Positions 12,333 to 59,922 of a stretch of DNA of 64,000 nucleotides are shown here, one piece after another. The position numbers were made by a program, and so were the translations under genes. Numbering within the stretch: the stretch's first letter is position 1; each line of letters opens with the position of its first letter. Below the pieces are notes generated by a model. That model ran no database searches. It was given only the letters and a program-made list of their open reading frames with translations, and had not been told where the DNA came from. The stretch comes from Fulvia fulva (Eukaryota; Ascomycota; Dothideomycetes; Mycosphaerellales; Mycosphaerellaceae): NCBI RefSeq assembly GCF_020509005.1, contig NC_063022.1:930001-994000 (forward strand), read 5' to 3'.

Positions 12333-12346
12333 TACGAGCGTATATA

Positions 12347-12366
12347 GATAGATAGATAGATAGATA
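12347..12366 (-). repeat. GATA tetranucleotide tail of LINE-A
   Basis: About five GATA units lie between the target duplication and the LINE-A 3' UTR. On the coding strand it reads as a TATC repeat ending the transcript. Equivalent tails close LINE-B (27460-27474), LINE-B' (25946-25964), LINE-D (51832-51842) and its fragment (62385-62393). Confidence 0.9.
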
Positions 12367-12548
12367 TTTCATTAAGCTGTTGTAGTGCCCTTTGGCCTAT
12401 GCAGCTATGCTATCTTGTTTTTGTATATATAGAGGGGAAACCGTGTTGGTGAAAACCCCTCCTCCTTCCCGCCTGTCTTTTCCTCCTCGTTGTCGTCTTA
12501 AATTTCCCTTGTTAGGGGTACGCTAGTGTCATGGGCCTGCCCTGATGA

Positions 12549-15500
12549 CTACCCTATCTGCAACCCCCCTCGCTTCCGCCTCTTGTCTATCCACTCCTCC
12601 GTCTCGCTCGCGAGGCTAAACTGCTGGAGGTATCCCTGCTGTAGTATCCACCGAGAGATTCGGCGAATGTTGCCTTTGTCCCTAATAATTGACTTGTAGT
12701 CTCTCCTTCCCGCTTGGTGCCTCCAATTTCCCCTGCCTCTCGCCCACTGCGGGCATCGTAGTAGCATATGTTCTGGGTTTTGCGATAGGTAGCCACACTG
12801 GCAGGCTGGGCTATAGATGTCTAGTGCGCGTCTTCTGAACAGGTAGGCCCTTAATCCAATGTGTTCGGACCTGATTTGGATCGCTATGCTTGCTTCGGCC
12901 CTTGTCAGGTCCCTATATAGCTGGTAATTGTGTCTCTGGAAGGCTCGGAGCGCTATCGGGCCTGTTGTCTTAGGGGGCTTCCTTTTCCAGTCCTGCTCCC
13001 ATAGGCAGCTCGCTATCTGTTCCGCTAGGTTTTGGGTCTTAGCCTTGCTCCCGCCGGCCTGGCGAGTCCTACGCTCCTCCTCCTTTCGTGCTAGCCATTC
13101 GGTGCTTGTCTGTACGGCCGTAAAGGTCGTAAGGTCATCCTCTTTTTGGCTTGTCCTATATCCTGCCCCTCTCCGGTAGCGGCTTTCTATCTTGTTCTTT
13201 GCCTCCTGGATCGTGGTTTGTGCTAGGTAACCTGTCGTCTTTGCCGCGTATTGAATTCTCATTCCCCGGATGTACTGGCCGATTGGTGGTATTCCTGTCT
13301 CCATTTCTACCGTGCTTGTTGACGTTGTCTTGTATGCGCCTAGTACCCTACGTAGGTTGCCTGCCTGTGTCCTGTTTAGGGGTTGCTCTATCCGTTTCGG
13401 GATCGGCTTGCCTGCGCCTCCTGTTCCCCAAATCTGTGCCCCGTACAACATAGCTGGTCTGACGATCGCCTTATACATTACTCTTGCCTTGTCGAATGTT
13501 GCTCCCCATGTAGATGCCGTAAGCCTCTTTATCGAGGCTTCATTGACTTGCGCTCGACTCTGGGCTTTCTTAATCTGTACATTCCAGCTTAGCTTCGGGT
13601 CGAGCCAGATCCCTAGTACTCGTAGCTCCGCTGATGGCTTGGTCTCGTAGCCTTGGATTCTTACCGCCGCCTTCATATTATGGTGTGTTCTCGCTTTACT
13701 GAAGTGTATAAGTTGGTACTTTTCAGGGGCGAACCGGGCACCATGCTTCTTTGCCCACTCCTCGCATTTCTTGTGCCTATCTTCAAGGAGGCGACAGTTC
13801 TCTTCTGTCGAGTCTGACCAGGCTAGGATGTTTGTATCGTCTACGAACCCCGATGCTGAGGTTTGCGGAGAGGTGAGTAGGGGGATTAGATCCGACATAA
13901 ATATCAGAAACAGGATAGGGGAGAGAGTAGATCCCTGAGGTATTCCAGTCTCTGCCTTCACCGGGTCGGACGTGTACCTTCCTAGGACTAGGTATGTCGT
14001 CCGTTCCTGGAGAAAGGAGAAGACGAACGACGTTGCCCACTGGGGGATGCCTTTCTGCTGTAGGATATGTATTAGCCTTTGGTGTGAGACGTTGTCGAAG
14101 GCCCCTGCGATGTCGAGGGATAGTAAGGACGCCGCTCGGTTCCTGCCGTAGTGCCAGAGGGTCTGGATTTGCTCCGTAATTAGCTCCATTGCTGTTAGTG
14201 TCGATCGCTGGCTTCTTCCCCCCATCTGTGTTGCTGGGAGTACGTGGTTGTCCTCGGCAAGCTGCGTAAGTCTCTGGGCTACTATCTTTTCTAGGACCTT
14301 CCCTATCGTATTTAGAAGTGCTATTGGTCTGTACGACTTGGGCTGAGTATAGTCTTCCTTCTGTGGCTTGCGTAGCACTACTGTCATAGACTCTCTGTAC
14401 GGCTTCGGGTGATACCCTAGCCGTAGGCACGCGGTAAATAGGTTTGCAAGGCTCGGCGCGATCTCTTCTCTACACTCTTTTAGCAGTACGTTTGGTATCC
14501 TGTCTGGGCCTGGGGCTTTTCGTCCCTTTAGCTTACTTATGACTCCTGTTACTGTGTTAGAGCTAACCGCCCAATCCATGTCCAGGGGTTCCGGGTATGT
14601 GCTCGGGTCGATGTCCGTAAGGTCTGCCTCTACTTGCGTCGAAAAGAAATGGTCGGCTAACGCTTTTGCCTTGCCCCGGGGCGTAGCCTGGGCAATCCCT
14701 TCGCGGTCTACGATTGGGGGGAAGTGAGGGGCTTGTTGCTCTTCAGGTAGTCGTGCCCATTTAGCAAGTCTCCACATCTGTTCCGGGTTTTCTGTAACGA
14801 GCCCGATCGTCGCTCTCCAGTCCTGCAGCTTATCGCGTCTTATCTGTGCCTTCTTCTCTTGTGTCGCGTGGCAGTATTGCTCCCACGTCTCTTGGGTGTG
14901 CTCCTTCGTCCACTGTCGCCTTGCCCTTCTAGCCTCCCTTACCTTCGTAGAGCATTCAGGGGTCCAGAAGGCCTTCTGCTGCGTTGAGGGCCGGAGTAAC
15001 GGCGTGTATTGTTCCGCTGCTTGCCATATGACCGAGGTAATCTGTTCCGCTGCTTGATCTAGCTGAGCTGTCGTCTCGAGTTCTCTATGCTGTGGTAGGT
15101 TCGCTATTAGGAAGCCTCTTATGTCGTCCCAGCGTGCCTTCTTCCAGTTACGGCGTGGTTCGTTTGCTGGCTCCTCTATCGCCTTCACCCCTAGCGTCGT
15201 TTGGATAGGGATATGGTCTGAGGAGGCTTCTAGCGCGTAGTTCGGTCGGCATTGGACTAGTCTCTCTTCAAGTTCTCGTGATAGAAAGCATAGGTCGATC
15301 GTGCTTGCACTAGTACGGGCCTTCCACGTCTCTGTTCCCTTTGGTGTTACTAAGGCCATTCCGTAGCGTGCGGTTATGTCCAGTAGCTTCCCCCCTAGAA
15401 ATGCGTGCGGGGGAGTGAATTCGAGTCCCCACTGTGGGTGGTGGAGGTTGAAGTCGCCGAGGAGTACTTGCTTCGTGTCTTGGCTTAGGGTCCGCTCTAG

Positions 15501-15902
15501 GTGGGCGAGGGTTCCTAGTTCCCTACTCGTCCGACCCCGCGGTGGCGGGTTGTAAACGTTATGGATCTGGATAGGGCCTTGTGTCGTGTCGATCTGGATT
15601 GATGTTATGTCTCCTAGGTTGCCCTGCTGCGGTAGTATAACCTTCCACGACTCAAGGTCTATAGTCTTGCTTACGTATATACATGTCCTCGGGATGACGC
15701 CTCGTTGGCCCGCGATTACGGTGTGGTATCTCCGGTCATTACAAGTGGCTGGGAGTCCTACGTAGGGGTTGATCCATGGTTCCTGTACCGCAATAACGTG
15801 GTGCCGTAGCGGGTCTAGCTCTTGTAGAAAGTGGCGCTGGACCTTGTCCCTACTTTTGTTTACGTTGTACTGTACGATAGTGATGTCGTCGTATAGTATC
15901 AT
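12549..15902 (-). CDS. LINE-A ORF2: endonuclease/reverse transcriptase, intact
   Basis: This is an intact 1117-residue protein for target-primed reverse transcription. The N-terminal endonuclease (EEP fold) occupies about residues 5-240: QYNVN 11-15, QEPW 40-43, GDFN 149-152, TID 201-203, SDH 228-230. The reverse transcriptase is at about 460-770: SYRPIALL 523-530, SLDIAGAFD 595-603 with D597, GIPQGSTLSP 653-662, and the catalytic pair FVDD 686-689. A C-terminal zinc-binding motif follows (C1034, C1036, H1045, C1050). All catalytic residues are present and there is no stop. Its start overlaps the ORF1 stop as ATGA, suggesting coupled translation. I see no RNase H domain. It may be active in trans, but this copy has lost its 5' end. 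Confidence 0.97.
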   Translation of the reverse strand: MILYDDITIVQYNVNKSRDKVQRHFLQELDPLRHHVIAVQEPWINPYVGLPATCNDRRYHTVIAGQRGVIPRTCIYVSKTIDLESWKVILPQQGNLGDITSIQIDTTQGPIQIHNVYNPPPRGRTSRELGTLAHLERTLSQDTKQVLLGDFNLHHPQWGLEFTPPHAFLGGKLLDITARYGMALVTPKGTETWKARTSASTIDLCFLSRELEERLVQCRPNYALEASSDHIPIQTTLGVKAIEEPANEPRRNWKKARWDDIRGFLIANLPQHRELETTAQLDQAAEQITSVIWQAAEQYTPLLRPSTQQKAFWTPECSTKVREARRARRQWTKEHTQETWEQYCHATQEKKAQIRRDKLQDWRATIGLVTENPEQMWRLAKWARLPEEQQAPHFPPIVDREGIAQATPRGKAKALADHFFSTQVEADLTDIDPSTYPEPLDMDWAVSSNTVTGVISKLKGRKAPGPDRIPNVLLKECREEIAPSLANLFTACLRLGYHPKPYRESMTVVLRKPQKEDYTQPKSYRPIALLNTIGKVLEKIVAQRLTQLAEDNHVLPATQMGGRSQRSTLTAMELITEQIQTLWHYGRNRAASLLSLDIAGAFDNVSHQRLIHILQQKGIPQWATSFVFSFLQERTTYLVLGRYTSDPVKAETGIPQGSTLSPILFLIFMSDLIPLLTSPQTSASGFVDDTNILAWSDSTEENCRLLEDRHKKCEEWAKKHGARFAPEKYQLIHFSKARTHHNMKAAVRIQGYETKPSAELRVLGIWLDPKLSWNVQIKKAQSRAQVNEASIKRLTASTWGATFDKARVMYKAIVRPAMLYGAQIWGTGGAGKPIPKRIEQPLNRTQAGNLRRVLGAYKTTSTSTVEMETGIPPIGQYIRGMRIQYAAKTTGYLAQTTIQEAKNKIESRYRRGAGYRTSQKEDDLTTFTAVQTSTEWLARKEEERRTRQAGGSKAKTQNLAEQIASCLWEQDWKRKPPKTTGPIALRAFQRHNYQLYRDLTRAEASIAIQIRSEHIGLRAYLFRRRALDIYSPACQCGYLSQNPEHMLLRCPQWARGRGNWRHQAGRRDYKSIIRDKGNIRRISRWILQQGYLQQFSLASETEEWIDKRRKRGGLQIG

Positions 15903-16527
15903 TCGTTATCCGTGAGGTCCATTTCCGTGCTGACCTGCTGTGTCTCCTGAGCCTGTATCTCGCTGTCCGGCTGGCCCTGGGGCCGCTGGGGCGCCCCAAA
16001 GATTCGCATTTGGCCTAGTTCGTTGGCTGCCCGGTTAAGGTGTCGAGGCCGACCGGGAGGTGGATGCGTTTGCGGTTGGGTTCCCTTGTTCGTCTCTTCT
16101 GCCCTCTTCCTTTTGCTCGGCTCGAAGCCCTTGTACACGGTAGGTCCCTCCTGTTGTCGTTGGGGGTACCTAGCTGGTGTAGAGATCCTTGCTTGTCTCG
16201 CTCGTTCTTGTGCTGCTATTCTAGCCGGGCATTGGCTTGAATACGCTGGGTGCCTTCTGCCGCAGCATGCGCACCTGCTCTCCTTTTTTGGGCATTCCCT
16301 TCCCTGGTGTGGGCCTGCGCAGTGAGGACACCTTGGGGTCTTCTCCCCGCATTTTGAGGCTATGTGACCGTACTGTTGGCATTGGAAGCATTGTAGTACC
16401 CTGTGGCTGCTCTGATGGATCTCCGTGTCCATTCTCTCGCAGTTCCAGAATAGCCCATTGTCTAATATCTGGTTAGCTTGTTCCGCTGTCTCTACCCAAA
16501 TAATAAGCGATGAATGCGTCTTTTCTC
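15899..16527 (-). CDS. LINE-A ORF1, 5'-truncated, zinc-knuckle RNA-binding protein
   Basis: This is the C-terminal part of the LINE ORF1, thought to coat the element RNA. From the first Met (16432) it has 177 residues. The frame is open a further 31 codons up to the insertion boundary, so the true N-terminus is missing. Three CCHC zinc knuckles follow that Met: C15-C18-H23-C28, C35-C38-H42-C47 and C54-C57-H61-C68. A Pro/Gln-rich tail ends in LTDNE. The TGA stop shares its bases with the ORF2 ATG. Without a promoter or N-terminus it is unlikely to be made from this copy. Confidence 0.9.
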
Positions 16528-16542
16528 TACGAGCGTATATAG

Positions 16543-18560
16543 AATTTATATACTAAGAGGCAGCACTATAATTAAGGAAGGTAAGAGCTTAATTACTATC
16601 TATACTACTAGGTATTATAAGGTAAGGGGACACTCTCGGCCTTAGTACCCCTCGTATAATAGGCGGTATTAGAGAGCTTACTAATATACGTAAAGCGTAC
16701 TCTAGTCCTTATATTACCGTATCTCGCTATATTTCCTTCTTAGTATTATGTTCGTAAGTAGGACTAACGGTTATCGTACTTAAGCGTTAGTCTAGCTATT
16801 TCCCTATTACTAAGGGTTAGCCGGTGTCTATATTATAGAGCTAGTATTCGCGCGCGGCGGAGGGCGCTTATACTACTTAATAGAGTAGTCTAGTAAGTAT
16901 AAGTTATAGTCTATATAGCGGTAGCGGATATAACCGCCTACTACGATAATACTAGCCTTCTCCTTAGGCTCGAGCTTCTTAAGTTCCTTAAATTTGCGCG
17001 GTATCTAAGCGTATAGCTTAAGGCCTAAACCTTAGGCTACGCCGGGCGCGGTAGGTATAGTACCGTTACTACCGCTAGTACTACGAGATAGTCGTAGTGT
17101 AGCTAGGGTCTTTGACTTTAGGCGCTCGAACTTAGCTTCGAGCTTATAGTATAGGTCGACTAAGTCTTCGCGGTCCTTAGTCTCTATAGGCAGTGCCTCT
17201 ATATATTTATAGTTAAGCTTACCCTCAAGTAGGCAGTAATTAGTCTTAGCTAATAGGTCGTATAAGTTACGCTATTTGTCGTACTTAGCGATAAAAATGG
17301 AAAATGACTCGTTCTTACCCTACTATAAGACCTAGAGCTTCTAGAAGGCCTTGCCTACGATGTCCTTCTTACTATACCGATCGATAAGGAATTAGATTAT
17401 ACTATCGATAGACTTAAAGGGGTTAACGTAATTACGCTTAGTATGCTTAGAGGGTACTCGCGGATTGTATAGCTAGTATAGGTACCCGTCGAGGTAGTTT
17501 AGGATATAGCGTAGTCCGTCCTCGATAGTCTAGAACTATATTACGGACAGCTTGATCTCTAGCTAATCGAGCTAACGGTTAAAGTTTATATTCTTATTGT
17601 CGAACTTGCTTTCTAGGTCCTTAACTAACTTGTTAGTATTTATAATATTGACTAAGGGTTCGATAGTAGTGAACTAGCTAACGGCGGTATTACTAGTTAC
17701 CCTAGAAGTACTACTAGGTATGCCCTAGCGTTCTCGTCGTAAGGAGTTACGGCGTAGGTAACGGCGTAGTCGACTATTATCTCTACCTTTATTGTTATTA
17801 GAGTTATCTCCGTCGTTATTACTACTACCTCTACTACCTCCTCGTTAGATACCTCTACCTATACGGTCCTACTAAGTAGGAGGCGTAGGTGATCGTAAAA
17901 CACCGTTACGACGAGGGGAGTAGACGCGGACCTAACGACTAAGGTCATTATTATTATTACCGTTAGTACCGCTAGTATCGCTAGTACCGTTCGTGTCCTT
18001 AGCTACTAGCTAAGCCTTTAGCCTACTACCTTCTTATTTAGAACCTAATTACGCTTAGATAGGGCTTTAATGTCCTTAGGTAACATGCCTACCTACGACT
18101 CCTCGACCTATCTAAAGAGTGTATCGTTGTCCTATTAGAGGCGCTAATTAGCTTCGTAAAGGTCTTATATCTAACTCTTATACTTCTAGTATTTATTAAA
18201 GTAGAATATAAAGAGGCCCTTAACATCCTTATCCTTTTCGAGTTGACTAAGACTCTCGGATACGATATTACGTTCCTTCTTTATATCGGCGTACTTACGC
18301 TATATAACCTTATTAGCCTTCTTTAGGGACTCGACCTAGTTGAAAAGTGTAATAAAGTCTAACTATATCTAGCGAACGAGGTGAAACATAATCTCCGGGT
18401 ATACTATAGTACGAGTTACGAACTTAGCTAGGCTCTTAATAGTAGTATACTCTAAGGCAATTGCCTACTCCTTAGGTTAGCGTATATTATTAGTTTTACT
18501 ATCTTATATAGATATATCATCTCTTGACTCTATAATCTTATACACCTTAATTCCTCATTC
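16543..18560 (-). pseudogene. gag: Gypsy-C gag, RIP-degraded
   Basis: This is the minus-strand gag of Gypsy-C, separated from its pol by LINE-A. A capsid-like block at about 17250-17420 reads FLIDRYSKKDIVGKAF and then NESFSIFIAKYDK, typical of Gypsy capsid. A Lys/Glu-rich coiled-coil-like stretch lies at about 18200-18300 (ADIKKERNIVSESLSQLEKD). Multiple TAG stops remain. The start is uncertain. Confidence 0.7.
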
Positions 18561-51817: not shown

Positions 51818-51999
51818 CTCGAGTATCGAATGGATAGATAGATTTGTTATTCCCCTGTTCTAGGACCCTATCCGGCCTATATAGGTATATATCTATTGTT
51901 ATGTACAAAGGGAAACCCGAATAGGTAAAAACCCTTCCCGCCCCCGACTACTCCTTATCTAGTTTAGCTTTCCTTCTAAACGTACGTAGTCTATGTCAC

Positions 52000-54900
52000 T
52001 ACCCCGTTAGCCCCCGCTCCTAGCCGGTCTCGTCGCGCTACGTCGTGTCCTCTCTTCCTATACTACTCCTACTAGGCGGTACTATTCTAGCTAGCCCTTC
52101 TCTAGTATCTAGTTCGTAATGCGCCGTAGGTCCTTAGCGTTATTAAGAAGTGCCCTAATCGTCCGGTTCCTCGCCTTTACTATCTACTCCCCCCTTCCTA
52201 GTGACTACCTCGGATAGACGAGGAGTACGTACCGTACGTTCTAGGAGCGATAGCCGTAGGGGTAGCTAGTATTCGTATATCCTAGAACCTTCCTCTATAA
52301 TAGGTACCCCTAGAGGCCGATGTGTTCGCTTCGTAGTTAGGTTGCTATACTACTCTATGCCCTCGTAAGGCGGTAGAAGATAAGCTTTAGGGGGTGCTTA
52401 ACCGCGGATTTTATAGCTAACTATTCCTTAGGTTGTCCCGCTAGCTAAGGGCGTCCACTATACCCTATAACCTAGTTGTTCCACCTCTCTTTCTATAGTT
52501 GCTCTATAAACGATTTCTTACCTTCCTATTATATTACTAGCTATTCGCCCCTTACCCGGTAGTTCGGCTCGTTTCCGGGTCGAATGCCCTTATACGCTAG
52601 TACTAATTCGCGGGCCCTTACGACTATAATAGCGATAACCTTCTATACTAGGTACTATACCGACTTACCTAAGTAGGAGGTCCGTAGTCCCTAGATATAT
52701 AGGTCGATCGGCGGTATAGCGGTCTCGTACTTAAGTATCCTTGTTAGTATCGACTTATATACCCCGGTGACCTTCCTTAGGCATTAGTTTTAGATCTCCG
52801 CTAGCGGCGCGACGAGTCCCTTCGATAGGCAGGCCCTCTTATCTAAGGACTACACTTAGCTACTATAGGTAAGGACTGGCCGTATAATAGCCGTATATAG
52901 AAGTCGTGACTACCGGAAGTCCGCCCCCTATATAGACGTAGTGAGCCTCTAGTATAATGCTATATTCTGTTTAGCTTTCCGTAATATTGCCTATACGTAC
53001 TTCCTCTACCGTAGCGCCGGGTCTACCTATAGTCCGAGGATCCTAAGCTGATTTGCTAGGTTAGTCGTGTGCCCCTATATCTAGATAGAAGCTTGTATAT
53101 TGTAGAACCGTGGCCGGCGCGTAAAGTGTATTAGATTGTACTTTTCTAGGGCAAACCGAGCCCCGTGCCTCCTAGCCTAGTCCTCGTAGATCTTGTGCTT
53201 CTCTTCTAGTAGCCTATAGTTCTCCTTAGTCGAGGAAGACTACGCTAGGATGTTTATGTCGTCTACGAAGCCGCTCGTAGCGGTGTTCTAGGATTCTAGG
53301 GCTAGGAGTAGCGTCGCTATAAAGAAGAGGAACAGAATAGGTACTAGCGTTAAGCCTTACGGGATTCTAGTATAGACTACTTGAAATAGGCTTCTGTACT
53401 AGCCGACTAGAATCGACGTACTACGGTCTTAGAGGTAGGACCGTACGAAGTTAATAAGCTACTTAGGGAGTCCTTTCGACCTTAGGATATAGAGTAGCCG
53501 CGGGTATAATACGTAGTCGAAGGCTCCCGATATGTCTAGGCTAAGTAAGGAAGCCACCTTGTCCCTATTCTTATACTAGATAGCCTTTACCTAAGAGGTG
53601 ATAAGTTCTATCGCGGATAGCGTCGATCGCTATAGGCGCGTACCTATCTAGGTGTCCGGGAGTAGGGAGTGTTCCTCTACCGCCTCGGAGAGTCTCGTTA
53701 TAACTAGCTTCTTAAGCGCCTTCCTAAGAGTGTTAAGGAGCGTAATTAGGCGGTACGACTTCACCTACGTATAGTCTTCCTTCTACGGCTTACGTAGGAC
53801 TACTATCGTCGATTGTTTAAAAGCTATCGGGTAGTATCCGGTCTATAGGTAGGCGTTAAAGATCGCTATAACTACTAGGGCTAGTTGATCTCTACACTTC
53901 TTTAGTAGCTCGTTTAGGATCCTATCCGGCCCCGGGGCTTTCTTCGCCGGTAACTTCCTTAGTATAGCGGCAACTTCTCCCTCGGACACCTCCTATTAGA
54001 CCGCGATACTAGGGGCTAGGGGAGTAGAGCTGTTTATGTCGCTTAGATTAGCCTCGACTAGGGGCGGGAAGAACTTGCTAGCTAGTAGACGCGCCTTAGC
54101 CTCGGGGTTACTAACCGGGCTACTAGGCGATTGTAGCGCTAGGATAGAGAAGGAGGGGCCCTATATAGGGTCCTATCGGGCCTATTTCGCTAGCTTCTAC
54201 ATCCTCTCTAGCTTACCGGCAATTTCTCCTACTATAGCCTTCTAGCCGACTGCTTTCTCCCTTCGTATTATAGCTTTCTTCTATTAGTATGCCTCTCTAT
54301 ATACGTTCTAGGCCTCCTCGCTATAGCTACTCGTCTATACCCGGCGGGCTCTCCTTACTTCTCTTACTACCGTAGTATACTCCGGCGTCTAGTATACTTT
54401 AGACTATATCGTTAGTTAGGTAAGCGGAACGTGAAGTGAGGTCGCTTTTCTTATTTCGTCTATTAACCCCTAGACTACTTCGTCTATCTCGTCTTTACTG
54501 TTATATTGCTACTACGCGATCTAGACTAGCCTCTTAGAGTTATCGAGGTATGCCTAGATGTCGGCCTAGTAGGCCTTTCCCTAGTTTAGCTTAGGGGTTC
54601 TCGCTAGTATACGTTATATCTATGTCGTAATAGAGGTCCTGACTAGTATATAGTCTAACGACGCCTCGAGTTTATGTTCGATCCTATAGTAGGTTACCGT
54701 ATAGTAGTAGCTATCTAAGATCTAGGAGAGGTCGATTGTGCCTTAGAGTCCCCCTCTCTTCTAGGTGCCTAGGTCCTTCGGGGTATTAAGGGCAAATACG
54801 TTGCTCGCTATTAAGTCGAGTACTTCGTCGGCTATAGGGTACGGCTATATAAGGCTTTCCTAGGAAGGGTGGTGTATATTAAAGTCTCCTACTACGATAT

Positions 54901-55320
54901 AGTAGCCTTGTCTCTTAAGCGTACTATCTAGGTGTCTATAGACCCCTAGGTCGCGGCTAGACCTCGAGGCTAGCGGTTGTATATATAGGTTGTGTATCTA
55001 GGTGCTACCTACGTAGAGGGAGGTAATATCGCCCCCGCCTTCTTCGTCTACGTAGTACACTACCTCCTAGTCGGATTCTAGTATGTCCTTACTAATATAG
55101 AAGCACGTACGGGGTCTACCGTCGCCTCGTAGGCATGTCGTATAGCCTAGTAACTTATAGGTCGTTAGTCTCTTATAGTACGGGTTAATCTATAGCTCCT
55201 AGATTATAAGGACGTAGTGGACGCGCGGGTCCGCCTCGTATAGGAAATGGTTCTAGACTATATCCTTACTATAGTTGACGTTATACTAGATAATACTAAG
55301 CGTGTCGAGGCTAGTTATCG
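52000..55320 (-). pseudogene. LINE-D ORF2, RIPped
   Basis: This is an endonuclease/RT remnant. RT blocks include the catalytic SGFVDD at about 53260-53280, still intact, and the conserved IPPIDLYI block at 52690-52720. The C-terminal zinc motif region lies at about 52230-52270. TAG stops are frequent. Its protein differs from those of LINE-A and LINE-B, so it is a third family. Confidence 0.8.
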
Positions 55321-55692
55321 GTATCGACAATCATTTCCTCTATATCGTCCTATATCCTACTGCCCTATACGTCCTAGTCTACGCCTATCGGCTATATACT
55401 AAAGGGGAGCCGGGCCTAGTTAGATTCCCTCGCCGTAGCTAGTAGAGCACGTGGCCTCCCGTACGCCCTAGATTACGTATCCTTTATATCGTTCTCGGCC
55501 CTAGGGCGCTTATACCTAACCGCCGCTAGTTAGTTCCGGTATAGGCTAGCCTTACGGTCGCCGTAGAATCTTAGGGCGACGGTTCTGTTTGTGATTACCT
55601 TGTTTTTCGCTAGTTTCCGCTATAGGCATTCCGTACTATACGATAGGTAGTGCCCCGGACAGTTCGCGTACCGTCTCGTAGTCGATATATAG

Positions 55693-56087
55693 ATAGATAG
55701 ATATTTCATTAAGCTGTTGTAGTGCCCTTTGGCCTATATAGCTATACTATCTTGTTTTTGTATATATAGAGGGGAAACCGTGTTAGTGAAAACCCCTCCT
55801 CCTTCCCGCCTGTCTTTTCCTCCTCGTTATCGTCTTAAATTTCCCTTATTAGGGGTACGCTAGTGTCATAGGCCTGCCCTAATGACTACCCTATCTACAA
55901 CCCCCCTCGCTTCCGCCTCTTGTCTATCTACTCCTCCGTCTCGCTCGCGAGGCTAAACTACTAGAGGTATCCCTACTATAGTATCTACCGAGAGATTCGG
56001 CGAATGTTGCCTTTGTCCCTAATAATTGACTTATAGTCTCTCCTTCCCGCTTAGTGCCTCCAATTTCCCCTACCTCTCGCCCACTAG
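55693..56087 (-). mobile_element. LINE-A 3' end fragment, part of chimeric insertion
   Basis: These 395 bp match 12348-12747, from the GATA tail through the 3' UTR into the end of ORF2. The differences I saw are all C-to-T or G-to-A at CpA/TpG sites. The left flank is CGTAGTCGATATATAG (55677-55692), repeated at 57990-58005. At 56085-56087 it joins the LINE-D-derived module with 1-3 bp of shared sequence. Confidence 0.93.
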
Positions 56088-57989
56088 TCTCCTATACAGT
56101 TCGAGTAGGCCTACTTATTTGTACACGTGTAGGTTTGGTGTCTATACTATTAGCATTTGAAGCATTAGAAGACACGAAAGGATAAGGAGTGCTTTTCTAC
56201 TATCTTAAGGCTATATTACTAGACTAGGCCTTATTCTATCGCTAGATCCGCCGCTTTCGCGTCTTATAGCTATACTATTAGCGCCGAGGCCTTCTTGCCT
56301 TCTGGCCATTTCCTATAGAGCTAAGTCGCCTTCTAGATTAGAGAGTTAAGAGTGACCGGGTTGTCCTCTTAGAGAGCGCGTAGGTGACCCTAGTTAGTTA
56401 GGTCAAACTCCTTAGGTATATCGTGGACTAGGATCGTGAATTGTTTCGTTAAGACCTTCGCTAATGCCGTAACCTTAGATACCTACTATAGCTGTGCCTC
56501 TAGGTGCCTCCTAGTAGTAGTAGAGCTAGTATAGATCTATAGAGTGCCGTTAGACTATTAGTTCACTACGACCACCCCTAGTTAGTTAATTCGTTAGGCG
56601 AGCTCCTTATTCGATAGCTTCGTAACTTCGGCCTAGTCTTCCTTTGCTATAATACGGATCGTAAATACATCGTACGTTAGGCGGGGGCCTAGTATCGATA
56701 CCGCGACTAATGCCTAGCTATAGGGGTGTTGATTCCGGGTGGCCTTACTAATCGCCTAGGACGTCGTCCTTATTTCTTGTTACCCTCGGTAATACGACAG
56801 TATAAGCGCCGTGCGTAGCTAAGTAATCATTACCTATAGAGACCGGTAAGGGAGCTGATCGTTAGTTTCTATACTTTTTGCGTCCTCTATAAGTTGCTAC
56901 TAGTTGTCTTAGTAAGGAAGGAATCGTATTTAGTAAGCTAGCTACGAGATAAGGTAACAAGTCTTAACCGCGCTTTCCTACTTATCTAGTACTACCGTAT
57001 AGCCTCGTTTCGAGAGGTTAGCCCGGAGCAAAAGCTTCCCTCTACGCCCTCCCTCCCTATTTGCTCCTTAAGCCAATATCCACCTCTATAGGCCTAAGCC
57101 CTTTAGTACTCTCTATTGACCGACATACGTATCCGTCCTCTCGGGCTATATAGACAGTGTCAGCCGTCGCTACTAGTATACACTACGCCCTAGGTTTTGA
57201 CGCCCTTTGCGTTACCGTAGCCTATCTCTAGAAAGCGGCCGTCTATACCTCGTAGGTTTACTCGGGGCACACACTACGCCGGGTAGCGTACTCCTTACGT
57301 TTCTACCTACTAACTAATATAAAGTTCCTTATTACCCTGCCCTCGATCCTCCCCGATTATAGAACTAATCCACTTATATTATACGTCTTTTCCCCGTCCT
57401 AATAGCCGTCTTTTCCTTACTTAGGCTATGGTCTTTTCCTCGTCGCAATCCACTATATTAGACTAGGTACGTTATGTAGCGGGATAGGTAGTGCCTTAGG
57501 CAAAACCCTCGTTCCTATACCGGGTGTTTAATAGGCCCTTATAGGCTTCGTCGCGTGTCTACCTACCTACCGTATTGCCCGCTAGCAAACACTAGATTGT
57601 TTCGTAGTCCGCTCGACGCCGTTATATAGTCCGCTCAGTTGTTGTTCTGTAGTCCGCTCGTCTAATGTTCGTCGCTTAGCCCGCTCGGTTTACGGTCTCC
57701 GGAGGTGAAAATTCTGTACTTATACTAGAGGTGTCCTATCGAGCGTATAGGCCACGGTTCCGCGCCCTTCTTATACGTAGAAAGAAGAGGGACTCGCTCC
57801 CGACACGAGTACACGCTCGTCGGATAGTTTTTATACCCGTTTTACTAGTAGTCCTCTATTCGCCGCGGCTTCGCCTACGTTACGCGCCCGTCGCGCCTAC
57901 GACACTCTAGCGTGAGAATACTTGGCTCTCTCGTAGCTAGACGAGAGGTTCGTAGCCGACACTACGTACAGGTGATTCTCGTCGTCGAC
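56088..57989 (-). repeat. Duplicated LINE-D 5' module, copy 1 (1902 bp)
   Basis: This matches 58021-59922 end to end. The first 1.3 kb or so is identical, retained CpA and RIP-made TpA alike, and the rest differs at about 15-20 sites, nearly all transitions. It begins inside the ORF1 zinc-knuckle region and ends at the same 5' terminus as LINE-D. The second target duplication follows immediately (57990-58005), so it was inserted together with the LINE-A fragment. Confidence 0.93.
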
Positions 57990-58005
57990 CGTAGTCGATA
58001 TATAG

Positions 58006-59922
58006 TCCCTAGATATATAGTCTCCTATACAGTTCGAGTAGGCCTACTTATTTGTACACGTGTAGGTTTGGTGTCTATACTATTAGCATTTGAAGCATTA
58101 GAAGACACGAAAGGATAAGGAGTGCTTTTCTACTATCTTAAGGCTATATTACTAGACTAGGCCTTATTCTATCGCTAGATCCGCCGCTTTCGCGTCTTAT
58201 AGCTATACTATTAGCGCCGAGGCCTTCTTGCCTTCTGGCCATTTCCTATAGAGCTAAGTCGCCTTCTAGATTAGAGAGTTAAGAGTGACCGGGTTGTCCT
58301 CTTAGAGAGCGCGTAGGTGACCCTAGTTAGTTAGGTCAAACTCCTTAGGTATATCGTGGACTAGGATCGTGAATTGTTTCGTTAAGACCTTCGCTAATGC
58401 CGTAACCTTAGATACCTACTATAGCTGTGCCTCTAGGTGCCTCCTAGTAGTAGTAGAGCTAGTATAGATCTATAGAGTGCCGTTAGACTATTAGTTCACT
58501 ACGACCACCCCTAGTTAGTTAATTCGTTAGGCGAGCTCCTTATTCGATAGCTTCGTAACTTCGGCCTAGTCTTCCTTTGCTATAATACGGATCGTAAATA
58601 CATCGTACGTTAGGCGGGGGCCTAGTATCGATACCGCGACTAATGCCTAGCTATAGGGGTGTTGATTCCGGGTGGCCTTACTAATCGCCTAGGACGTCGT
58701 CCTTATTTCTTGTTACCCTCGGTAATACGACAGTATAAGCGCCGTGCGTAGCTAAGTAATCATTACCTATAGAGACCGGTAAGGGAGCTGATCGTTAGTT
58801 TCTATACTTTTTGCGTCCTCTATAAGTTGCTACTAGTTGTCTTAGTAAGGAAGGAATCGTATTTAGTAAGCTAGCTACGAGATAAGGTAACAAGTCTTAA
58901 CCGCGCTTTCCTACTTATCTAGTACTACCGTATAGCCTCGTTTCGAGAGGTTAGCCCGGAGCAAAAGCTTCCCTCTACGCCCTCCCTCCCTATTTGCTCC
59001 TTAAGCCAATATCCACCTCTATAGGCCTAAGCCCTTTAGTACTCTCTATTGACCGACATACGTATCCGTCCTCTCGGGCTATATAGACAGTGTCAGCCGT
59101 CGCTACTAGTATACACTACGCCCTAGGTTTTGACGCCCTTTGCGTTACCGTAGCCTATCTCTAGAAAGCGGCCGTCTATACCTCGTAGGTTTACTCGGGG
59201 CACACACTACGCCGGGTAGCGTACTCCTTACGTTTCTACCTACTAACTAATATAAAGTTCCTTATTACCCTGCCCTCGATCCTCCCCGATTATAGAACTA
59301 ATCCACTTATATTATACGTCTTTTCCCCGTCCTAATAGCCGTCTTTTCCTTACTTAGGCTATAGTCTTTTCCTCGTCGCAATCCACTATATTAGACTAGG
59401 TACGTTATGTAGCGGGATAGGTAGTACCTTAGGCAAAACCCTCGTTCCTATACCGGGTGTTTAATAGGCCCTTATAGGCTTCGTCCCGTGTCTACCTACC
59501 TACCGTATTGCCCGCTAGTAAACACTAGATTGTTTCGTAGTCCGCTCGACGCCGTTATATAGTCCGCTTAGTTATTGTTCTATAGTCCGCTCGTCTAATG
59601 TTCGTCGCTTAGCCCGCTCGGTTTATAGTCTCCGGAGGCAAAAATTCTGTACTTATACTAGAGGTGTCCTGTCGAGCGTATAGGCCACGGTTCCGCGCCC
59701 TTCTTATACGTAGAAAGAAGAGGGACTCGCTCCCGATACGAGTATACGCTCGTCGGATAGTTTTTATACCCGTTTTACTAGTAGTCCTCTATTCGCCGCG
59801 GCTTCGCCTACGTTACGCGCCTGTCGCGCCTACGACGCTCTAGCGTAAGAATACTTGGCTCTCTCGTAGCTAGACGAGAGGTTCGTAGCCGACACTACGT
59901 ATAGGTGATTCTCGTCGTCGAC
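58006..59922 (-). pseudogene. LINE-D ORF1 N-terminal part and 5' UTR (copy 2 from 58021)
   Basis: This is the native 5' part of LINE-D. The coding strand at about 58020-58110 reads CFKC-stop-stop-YRHQTYTC, a CCHC knuckle, then NCIGD. The frame continues across the insertion site (58006-58020 into 55692 and below) with RRYANCPGHYLSYSTEC. The join is therefore colinear and 58006-58020 is genuine LINE-D sequence. Upstream of the knuckles lies the rest of ORF1 and a long 5' UTR. Confidence 0.85.

Follow-up and report, generated by a model that had tools for sequence, protein, structure and literature searches.

Chimeric long interspersed nuclear elements (LINEs) have been described in Magnaporthe grisea as MINE elements, in which a constant WEIRD part of about 1.1 kb (1113 nt) is fused at its 3′ end to bodies of the LINE MGL that have the same orientation and are truncated at many points (PMC2104539; statements on this paper, on PMC6895275 and on PMC5104497 refer to excerpts of each). 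Some join points are used more than once, the switch motif is given as GCC^A/U (the caret marks the switch), no homology was found at the joins in the excerpted text, and a target duplication of 10 to 20 bp is typical. Double template jumps with target duplication are also described there, and the tripartite WEIRD-MgSINE-MGL element, with a duplication of 14 bp, consists of three parts that imply two switches; three-part chimeras of this double-jump kind are known already. In this study, a LINE insertion of Fulvia fulva was compared with these and related systems. The insertion lies in a stretch of 64,000 nucleotides (hereafter the window; assembly GCF_020509005.1, contig NC_063022.1, positions 930,001 to 994,000 of the forward strand), where the 3′ end of one LINE, LINE-A, has landed in a copy of another, LINE-D, and where the middle part of the insert appears to be a copy of the target itself.

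Two further bodies of work are relevant to this structure. Little is understood of how LINE complementary DNA (cDNA) becomes joined to the target on the upstream side during integration. LINE enzymes can copy both DNA and RNA and can displace a strand, and the 5′ junction has been proposed to arise when the cDNA jumps onto upstream target DNA; in the four-way junction model, the cDNA meets the second strand of the target shortly upstream of the nick, and extension along that strand may follow (PMC6895275). In mammalian cells, both homologous template switching and long-tract gene conversion that ends in microhomology joining have been described (PMC5104497). In the open-access literature, covered by titles and abstract openings and with subscription papers outside the scope, no LINE insertion was found that carries a long stretch copied from its target or has that target as its middle part.

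Three-part build of the insert

The insert is oriented minus throughout and is bounded by two exact copies of the 16-bp sequence CGTAGTCGATATATAG (coordinates are given in Table 1). The corresponding empty site, examined over 40 bases, was present at 29 of 29 other loci containing the target region, exactly in 23 and with one change in six, and also in L003 to L007 with zero to four changes. In these last five copies, the sequence matching the remainder of the target runs continuously into that matching 57990-58844 (the stretches compared reach 54205). The undisturbed site in other LINE-D loci indicates a genuine insertion with target duplication, as the first-pass annotation of this DNA had proposed. 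All comparisons concern one case in one assembly of 67 Mb and 14 contigs.

That annotation had described the insert as 395 bp of LINE-A 3′ end joined to 1902 bp of LINE-D 5′ side. Both parts are present, with two corrections: the LINE-A portion measures 394 bp, and the outer 1078 bp form a separate 5′ module that is not LINE-D's own and that also occurs on LINE-A copies. Identity of the LINE-A portion to 39 other LINE-A places was 97-98% among the matches listed (best 40 of 975 candidates). Judged from its sequence, the insert is a three-part chimera in the order 5′ module, LINE-D, LINE-A. Its 5′ terminus at 57989 is the family's own, since six copies begin with GGTCGACGACG or GTCGACGACG after unrelated flanks; the earlier claim that the copy ends exactly at the 5′ terminus therefore stands, but the terminus is that of the module and is uninformative on a local RNA.

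The 3′ end of the module is fixed (position 1076-1078) and is joined to LINE-D bodies as well as to LINE-A bodies that are truncated at various positions. Unbroken LINE-D copies continue across the join point as gcgaagCCCCCC^TAAGAC (the caret marks the join), and module-LINE-D copies retain zero to five of those Cs. A total of 26 module ends were inspected (23 with a body reference, two without and one matching only itself; some rows represent the same locus), and these yielded 11 distinct join points, LINE-A and LINE-D bodies taken together. Read by eye, the LINE base that precedes the join was C at 10 of the 11, with one ambiguous. This number of distinct joins at the module's 3′ end points to the module as the habitual last template of this LINE system.

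The insert and its related copies thus have the build of the MINE chimeras, a likeness that we draw from the arrangement of parts and not from the sequences of module and WEIRD. The constant 5′ part (1078 bp), its fusion to same-orientation bodies truncated at many points, the repeated use of some join points, the three parts implying two switches and the 16-bp duplication all have counterparts in Magnaporthe. Four features differ: two or more LINE families carry the module, the target itself makes up the middle part, the second template change lies in register inside the module instead of at its 3′ end, and the LINE-A/LINE-D join has a microhomology of 2 bp. The module joins, which follow C, can be compared with the MINE switch motif, whereas the LINE-A/LINE-D join (CCCG^TA, join at the caret) does not fit it.

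A local inner part and a probably foreign outer part

When 56088-57989 was aligned with 58021-59922, a check proposed in the first-pass annotation, 18 differences and zero gaps were found over the 1902 bp, and all of the differences fell within 57430-57969. When 18 differences were placed at random 200,000 times, a clean run of 1342 bp never arose. From 56088 to 57451, insert and target differ once in 1364 bp. Over the 824 bp of LINE-D body they are identical (1487 bits), and the best of 38 other full-length places scored 1383 bits, which is 104 bits lower and corresponds by our estimate to about 23 differences, among the matches listed (best 40 of 1142 candidates). On these figures, and as far as the best 40 of 1142 candidates go, a LINE-D body copied from RNA made elsewhere was rejected. 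Two substitutions in the body are common to insert and target and absent from the other 33-34 aligned copies. Within the module, insert and target have the same base at position 539, one that none of 13 other copies has, and at position 560 both differ from the base of all 13.

Repeat-induced point mutation (RIP) was compared at the CpA/TpG sites of L007, the most divergent and least RIPped of the aligned copies. At 175 such sites in the local part, 115 were changed in both sequences, 60 were kept in both and none was changed in one only, which bears out the earlier view that the template was already RIPped when it was copied. In the outer part, 28 sites were changed in both, 14 were kept in both and 11 were one-sided (one in the insert, 10 in the target).

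Over module positions 1-497, insert and target show 17 differences. Against 13 other module copies, the target has five states of its own here and the insert has one, and some of the target-only states do turn up in other copies in the genome. Among the best 40 of 618 candidates for the insert's outer 497 bp, 39 other copies were listed, down to 846 bits, and the target was not among them; likewise, the insert was not among the best 40 of 618 matches for the target's outer 497 bp. No near-identical donor was found for either sequence among the matches listed, the best reaching 870 bits for the insert and 846 bits for the target against 897. These comparisons indicate that the sequence from 56088 to at least 57451 is of local target origin, and that 57493-57989 most likely derives from another module copy, or else that the target's outer part was replaced later. 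As the present sequences read, the local template would have been left about 500 bp short of its 5′ end. The earlier proposal of a single switch onto a local transcript that was then copied to its 5′ end does not agree with the 17 differences and the at least 39 closer copies.

Two ways of setting aside this mosaic were considered. Later RIP of the target alone was rejected, as the target also carries states at positions 284 and 437 that are not of RIP type, and 0 of 175 RIP sites differ in the adjoining local part. Another module copy may have converted the outer part of the target at a later time, which would rescue the single switch; the target states 284, 296 and 297, absent from the 13 aligned copies, do occur singly elsewhere, and the 26-base stretch that holds them was matched at seven places with one mismatch and six with two. 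It has no exact second copy, however, and nothing close to the target's outer part was present among the matches listed (best 846 against 897 bits).

At the inner end of the copy, the LINE-A/LINE-D junction, taken as 27 bases, is present at a single place in the genome when up to three mismatches are allowed. This uniqueness in 67 Mb rules out an established LINE-A/LINE-D chimeric family and agrees with the expectation that the chimera would be absent from unrelated loci. Template switching is upheld as the likely process. Other LINE-A sequence continues at the join point into CGGGCAT. As TA is common to both parents, the LINE-D sequence starts at 58018-58020, so that the start stated earlier as 15 bp from the nick is indeed close but is better given as 12-15 bp from the duplication edge, on the LINE's 5′ side. 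The 9-mer GATATATAG is present twice here: its first copy forms the end of the target duplication, and its second copy finishes at the start of the LINE-D sequence. GATATATAG occurs nine times on the plus strand of the window. In the little-RIPped L007, the two sites read GATGTACAG and GACATATGG, and the comparison indicates that RIP-type changes made both GATATATAG sites from these forms. The changes presumably predate the insertion, because both copies of the duplication carry them. It was also observed that many of the 27 resolved LINE-A tails come after ..TAT or ..AT, and RIP may generate TA-rich sites used by LINE-A (compare L006 and L007).

Possible routes to the chimera

Three readings fit a local template together with an in-register template change: copying of target DNA, copying of a run-off LINE-D RNA, and later DNA repair. 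Our leading reading, which we hold tentatively, is a transfer of the LINE-A cDNA to the target strand while insertion was under way: copying would have begun 12-15 bp from the duplication edge, covered about 1.4 kb and then continued on a free module RNA. The LINE-A endonuclease would nick the plus strand at GATATATAG, and reverse transcription of LINE-A RNA would halt after about 394 nt. The cDNA end (..TA) could then pair with the other strand of the target at the second GATATATAG and be extended about 1.4 kb along that DNA strand, displacing its partner. Once within the module, homology would let the nascent cDNA move to a free RNA of the module, the template on which this LINE system usually finishes, and copying would reach the 5′ end of that RNA; a normal second-strand step would close the site and yield the 16-bp duplication. 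The first part of this route resembles the four-way junction model (PMC6895275) and differs from it in extent: the pairing there is short and closes the junction, whereas the present route would need about 1.4 kb of copying and a subsequent release of the strand to another template.

Several points weigh against the jump to target DNA. A single case is known, and the in-register change inside the module is equally expected from DNA recombination. Among 29 other LINE-A loci, in which many inserts outrun the stretch compared, no near-identical same-direction repeat across the tail was found; the earlier expectation of further LINE-A insertions with target sequence at their 5′ end was not borne out within the same limit. 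The LINE-A/LINE-D join departs from the C-before-join rule of the module joins. The LINE-A exit point lies on the 3′ arm of a small 8-bp hairpin (L070 sequence), but the 101-nt region around it folds no better than shuffles (z 0.09), its overall stability being ordinary, and the hairpin was rejected as a strong pause. A jump to target DNA lacks demonstration in vitro (PMC6895275), and no precedent for 1.4 kb of copying on duplex target was found in the excerpts of the literature consulted for the mechanism. In favour of the route, the exit point does lie in that hairpin, and the LINE-A copy of L035/L075 quits its template at most about 10 nt from the exit point of the window insert; this hints at an enzyme pause.

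Later DNA repair appears rather unlikely, less so than the other alternatives. An ordinary module-LINE-A chimera would have inserted first at the 16-bp site and later been broken; its module end would have invaded the target's module, copied through the LINE-D body and joined the LINE-A stump by the 2-bp microhomology. Such an event would belong to long-tract gene conversion ended by end joining, and an unequal exchange followed by a deletion would leave the same picture. The route accommodates a breakpoint at module positions 497-539 that is in register within shared sequence, as well as the TA common to both parents at the join; ordinary module-LINE-A inserts exist, one of them inside a LINE-D (L023), and both in-register switching and a microhomology join beside the donor are features of the described process (PMC5104497). 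That process has no tie to a LINE nick, and the 12-15 bp proximity is left unexplained: a start so near, and at the second nick-site 9-mer, would be a coincidence of a few percent by our estimate. Nor is a time gap visible. No private change was found in the LINE-A part when 31 sequences were compared, and the outer module has one insert-only site over positions 1-497 in comparison with 13 copies, although a short gap is still compatible with both. The jump to target DNA is favoured over later repair because copying that formed part of the insertion would be expected to start where it does, 12-15 bp away at the second nick-site 9-mer.

An amended form of the nascent-transcript model of the first-pass annotation is less probable again. 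In this form, the local template would be a LINE-D RNA that ended by run-off at the second GATATATAG, where its template strand was nicked, and the outer 500 bp would come from a homologous switch to another module RNA or from later conversion of the target. The strand geometry that the annotation relied on holds, in that both elements are minus and LINE-D RNA is templated by the same plus strand that primes LINE-A cDNA. If the second GATATATAG were nicked, a transcript would end where the copy starts, and in Magnaporthe transcription of some WEIRD-LINE chimeras is described (PMC2104539). However, the insert's outer part is nearer to other copies than to the target, so that no local RNA 5′ end is visible, and the target is heavily RIPped, with (CpA+TpG)/(ApC+GpT) = 0.25 over 51830-55676. 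RIPped DNA is usually silent. Target DNA is favoured as template over a local RNA because DNA is always present at the nick and a RIPped element need not be transcribed. An assembly error or merged alleles at the 1.9-kb near-identical tandem repeat, a concern given the one difference in 1364 bp, is very improbable: the 16-bp duplication is perfect and the 5′ terminus canonical, the 17 differences in the outer 497 bp come with a better fit to other module copies than to the target, and the contig, one of 14, measures 3.3 Mb.

If the jump to target DNA is true, a LINE insertion could tandemly duplicate the upstream half of any target, and the present insertion would be a fossil of the target-jump step with a record of 1.4 kb. 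RIP gives each copy its own substitution pattern, thereby making the template of each stretch traceable in this fungus, and a MINE-like system on two LINE families offers many template switches to study.

Coordinates and other LINE copies

Table 1. Features of the insert and of its LINE-D target, in window positions
Feature	Position	Strand	Basis
Left copy of 16-bp target duplication CGTAGTCGATATATAG	55677..55692	none	Exact match at 57990-58005; site undivided at 29 of 29 other LINE-D loci
LINE-A 3′ end, 394 bp, with ATAG tail units	55693..56086	-	97-98% to 39 other places; relative at 12345-16552 encodes endonuclease and reverse transcriptase
LINE-A/LINE-D join: TA in both parents, next G from LINE-D	56085..56087	none	Sequence comparison; 27-mer unique in genome
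LINE-D body in insert, 824 bp	56088..56911	-	Identical to 58021-58844 (1487 bits); 38 other full-length places among matches listed reach 1383 bits at best
Module positions 539-1078, apparent local-target origin	56912..57451	-	One difference; states at 539 and 560 in comparison with 13 other copies
Interval holding the second template change	57452..57492	none	Between 57451 (shared with target) and 57493 (not shared)
Module positions 1-497 of insert, nearer to other module copies than to target	57493..57989	-	17 differences to target; at least 39 other places above target
Right copy of target duplication, ending in 9-mer GATATATAG at 57997-58005	57990..58005	none	Exact match to left copy
Second GATATATAG; LINE-D copy starts within its last three bases	58012..58020	+	Sequence; both 9-mers differ in L007
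LINE-D body of target, apparent donor of the copy	58021..58844	-	Identical to 56088-56911
1078-bp module at 5′ end of target	58845..59922	-	Joins to other LINE bodies
Remainder of LINE-D target	51830..55676	-	3′ end at 51830 judged from tail units only

Other copies of the two LINE families show further joins and truncations. A truncated LINE-A without a module (L038) is ordinary and has its own target duplication. Seven copies (L018, L020, L024, L029, L032, L033 and L034) have one common module join point (A:2010) with a variable number of Cs; this point may be a hot spot of switching, or the copies may form a family that is mobilized together. In L074 (G000:C5:3594300-3598300), two LINE-A copies enclose a chimera of module and LINE-D with its join at D:1713. 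In L035/L075 (G000:C3:1843400-1847700), an internal jump from about A:3390-3399 to A:1868 was observed, near the exit of the window insert. Near position 1410 of L022, a LINE-A end of 485 nt is fused to unrelated, weakly RIPped sequence of at least 1.4 kb, in which no repeat of the 3′ flank of at least 8 bases was found; this is perhaps another chimera.

Within the window, a relative of LINE-A at 12345-16552 on the minus strand is little RIPped and has an open frame of 1118 amino acids with endonuclease and reverse transcriptase domains, whose named matches include fungal reverse transcriptases; LINE-A is identified as a LINE by these features. The same copy has a frame of 217 amino acids with a zinc-knuckle match slightly under the curated cut-off, and heavily RIPped copies of the LINE-A family share the window with it.

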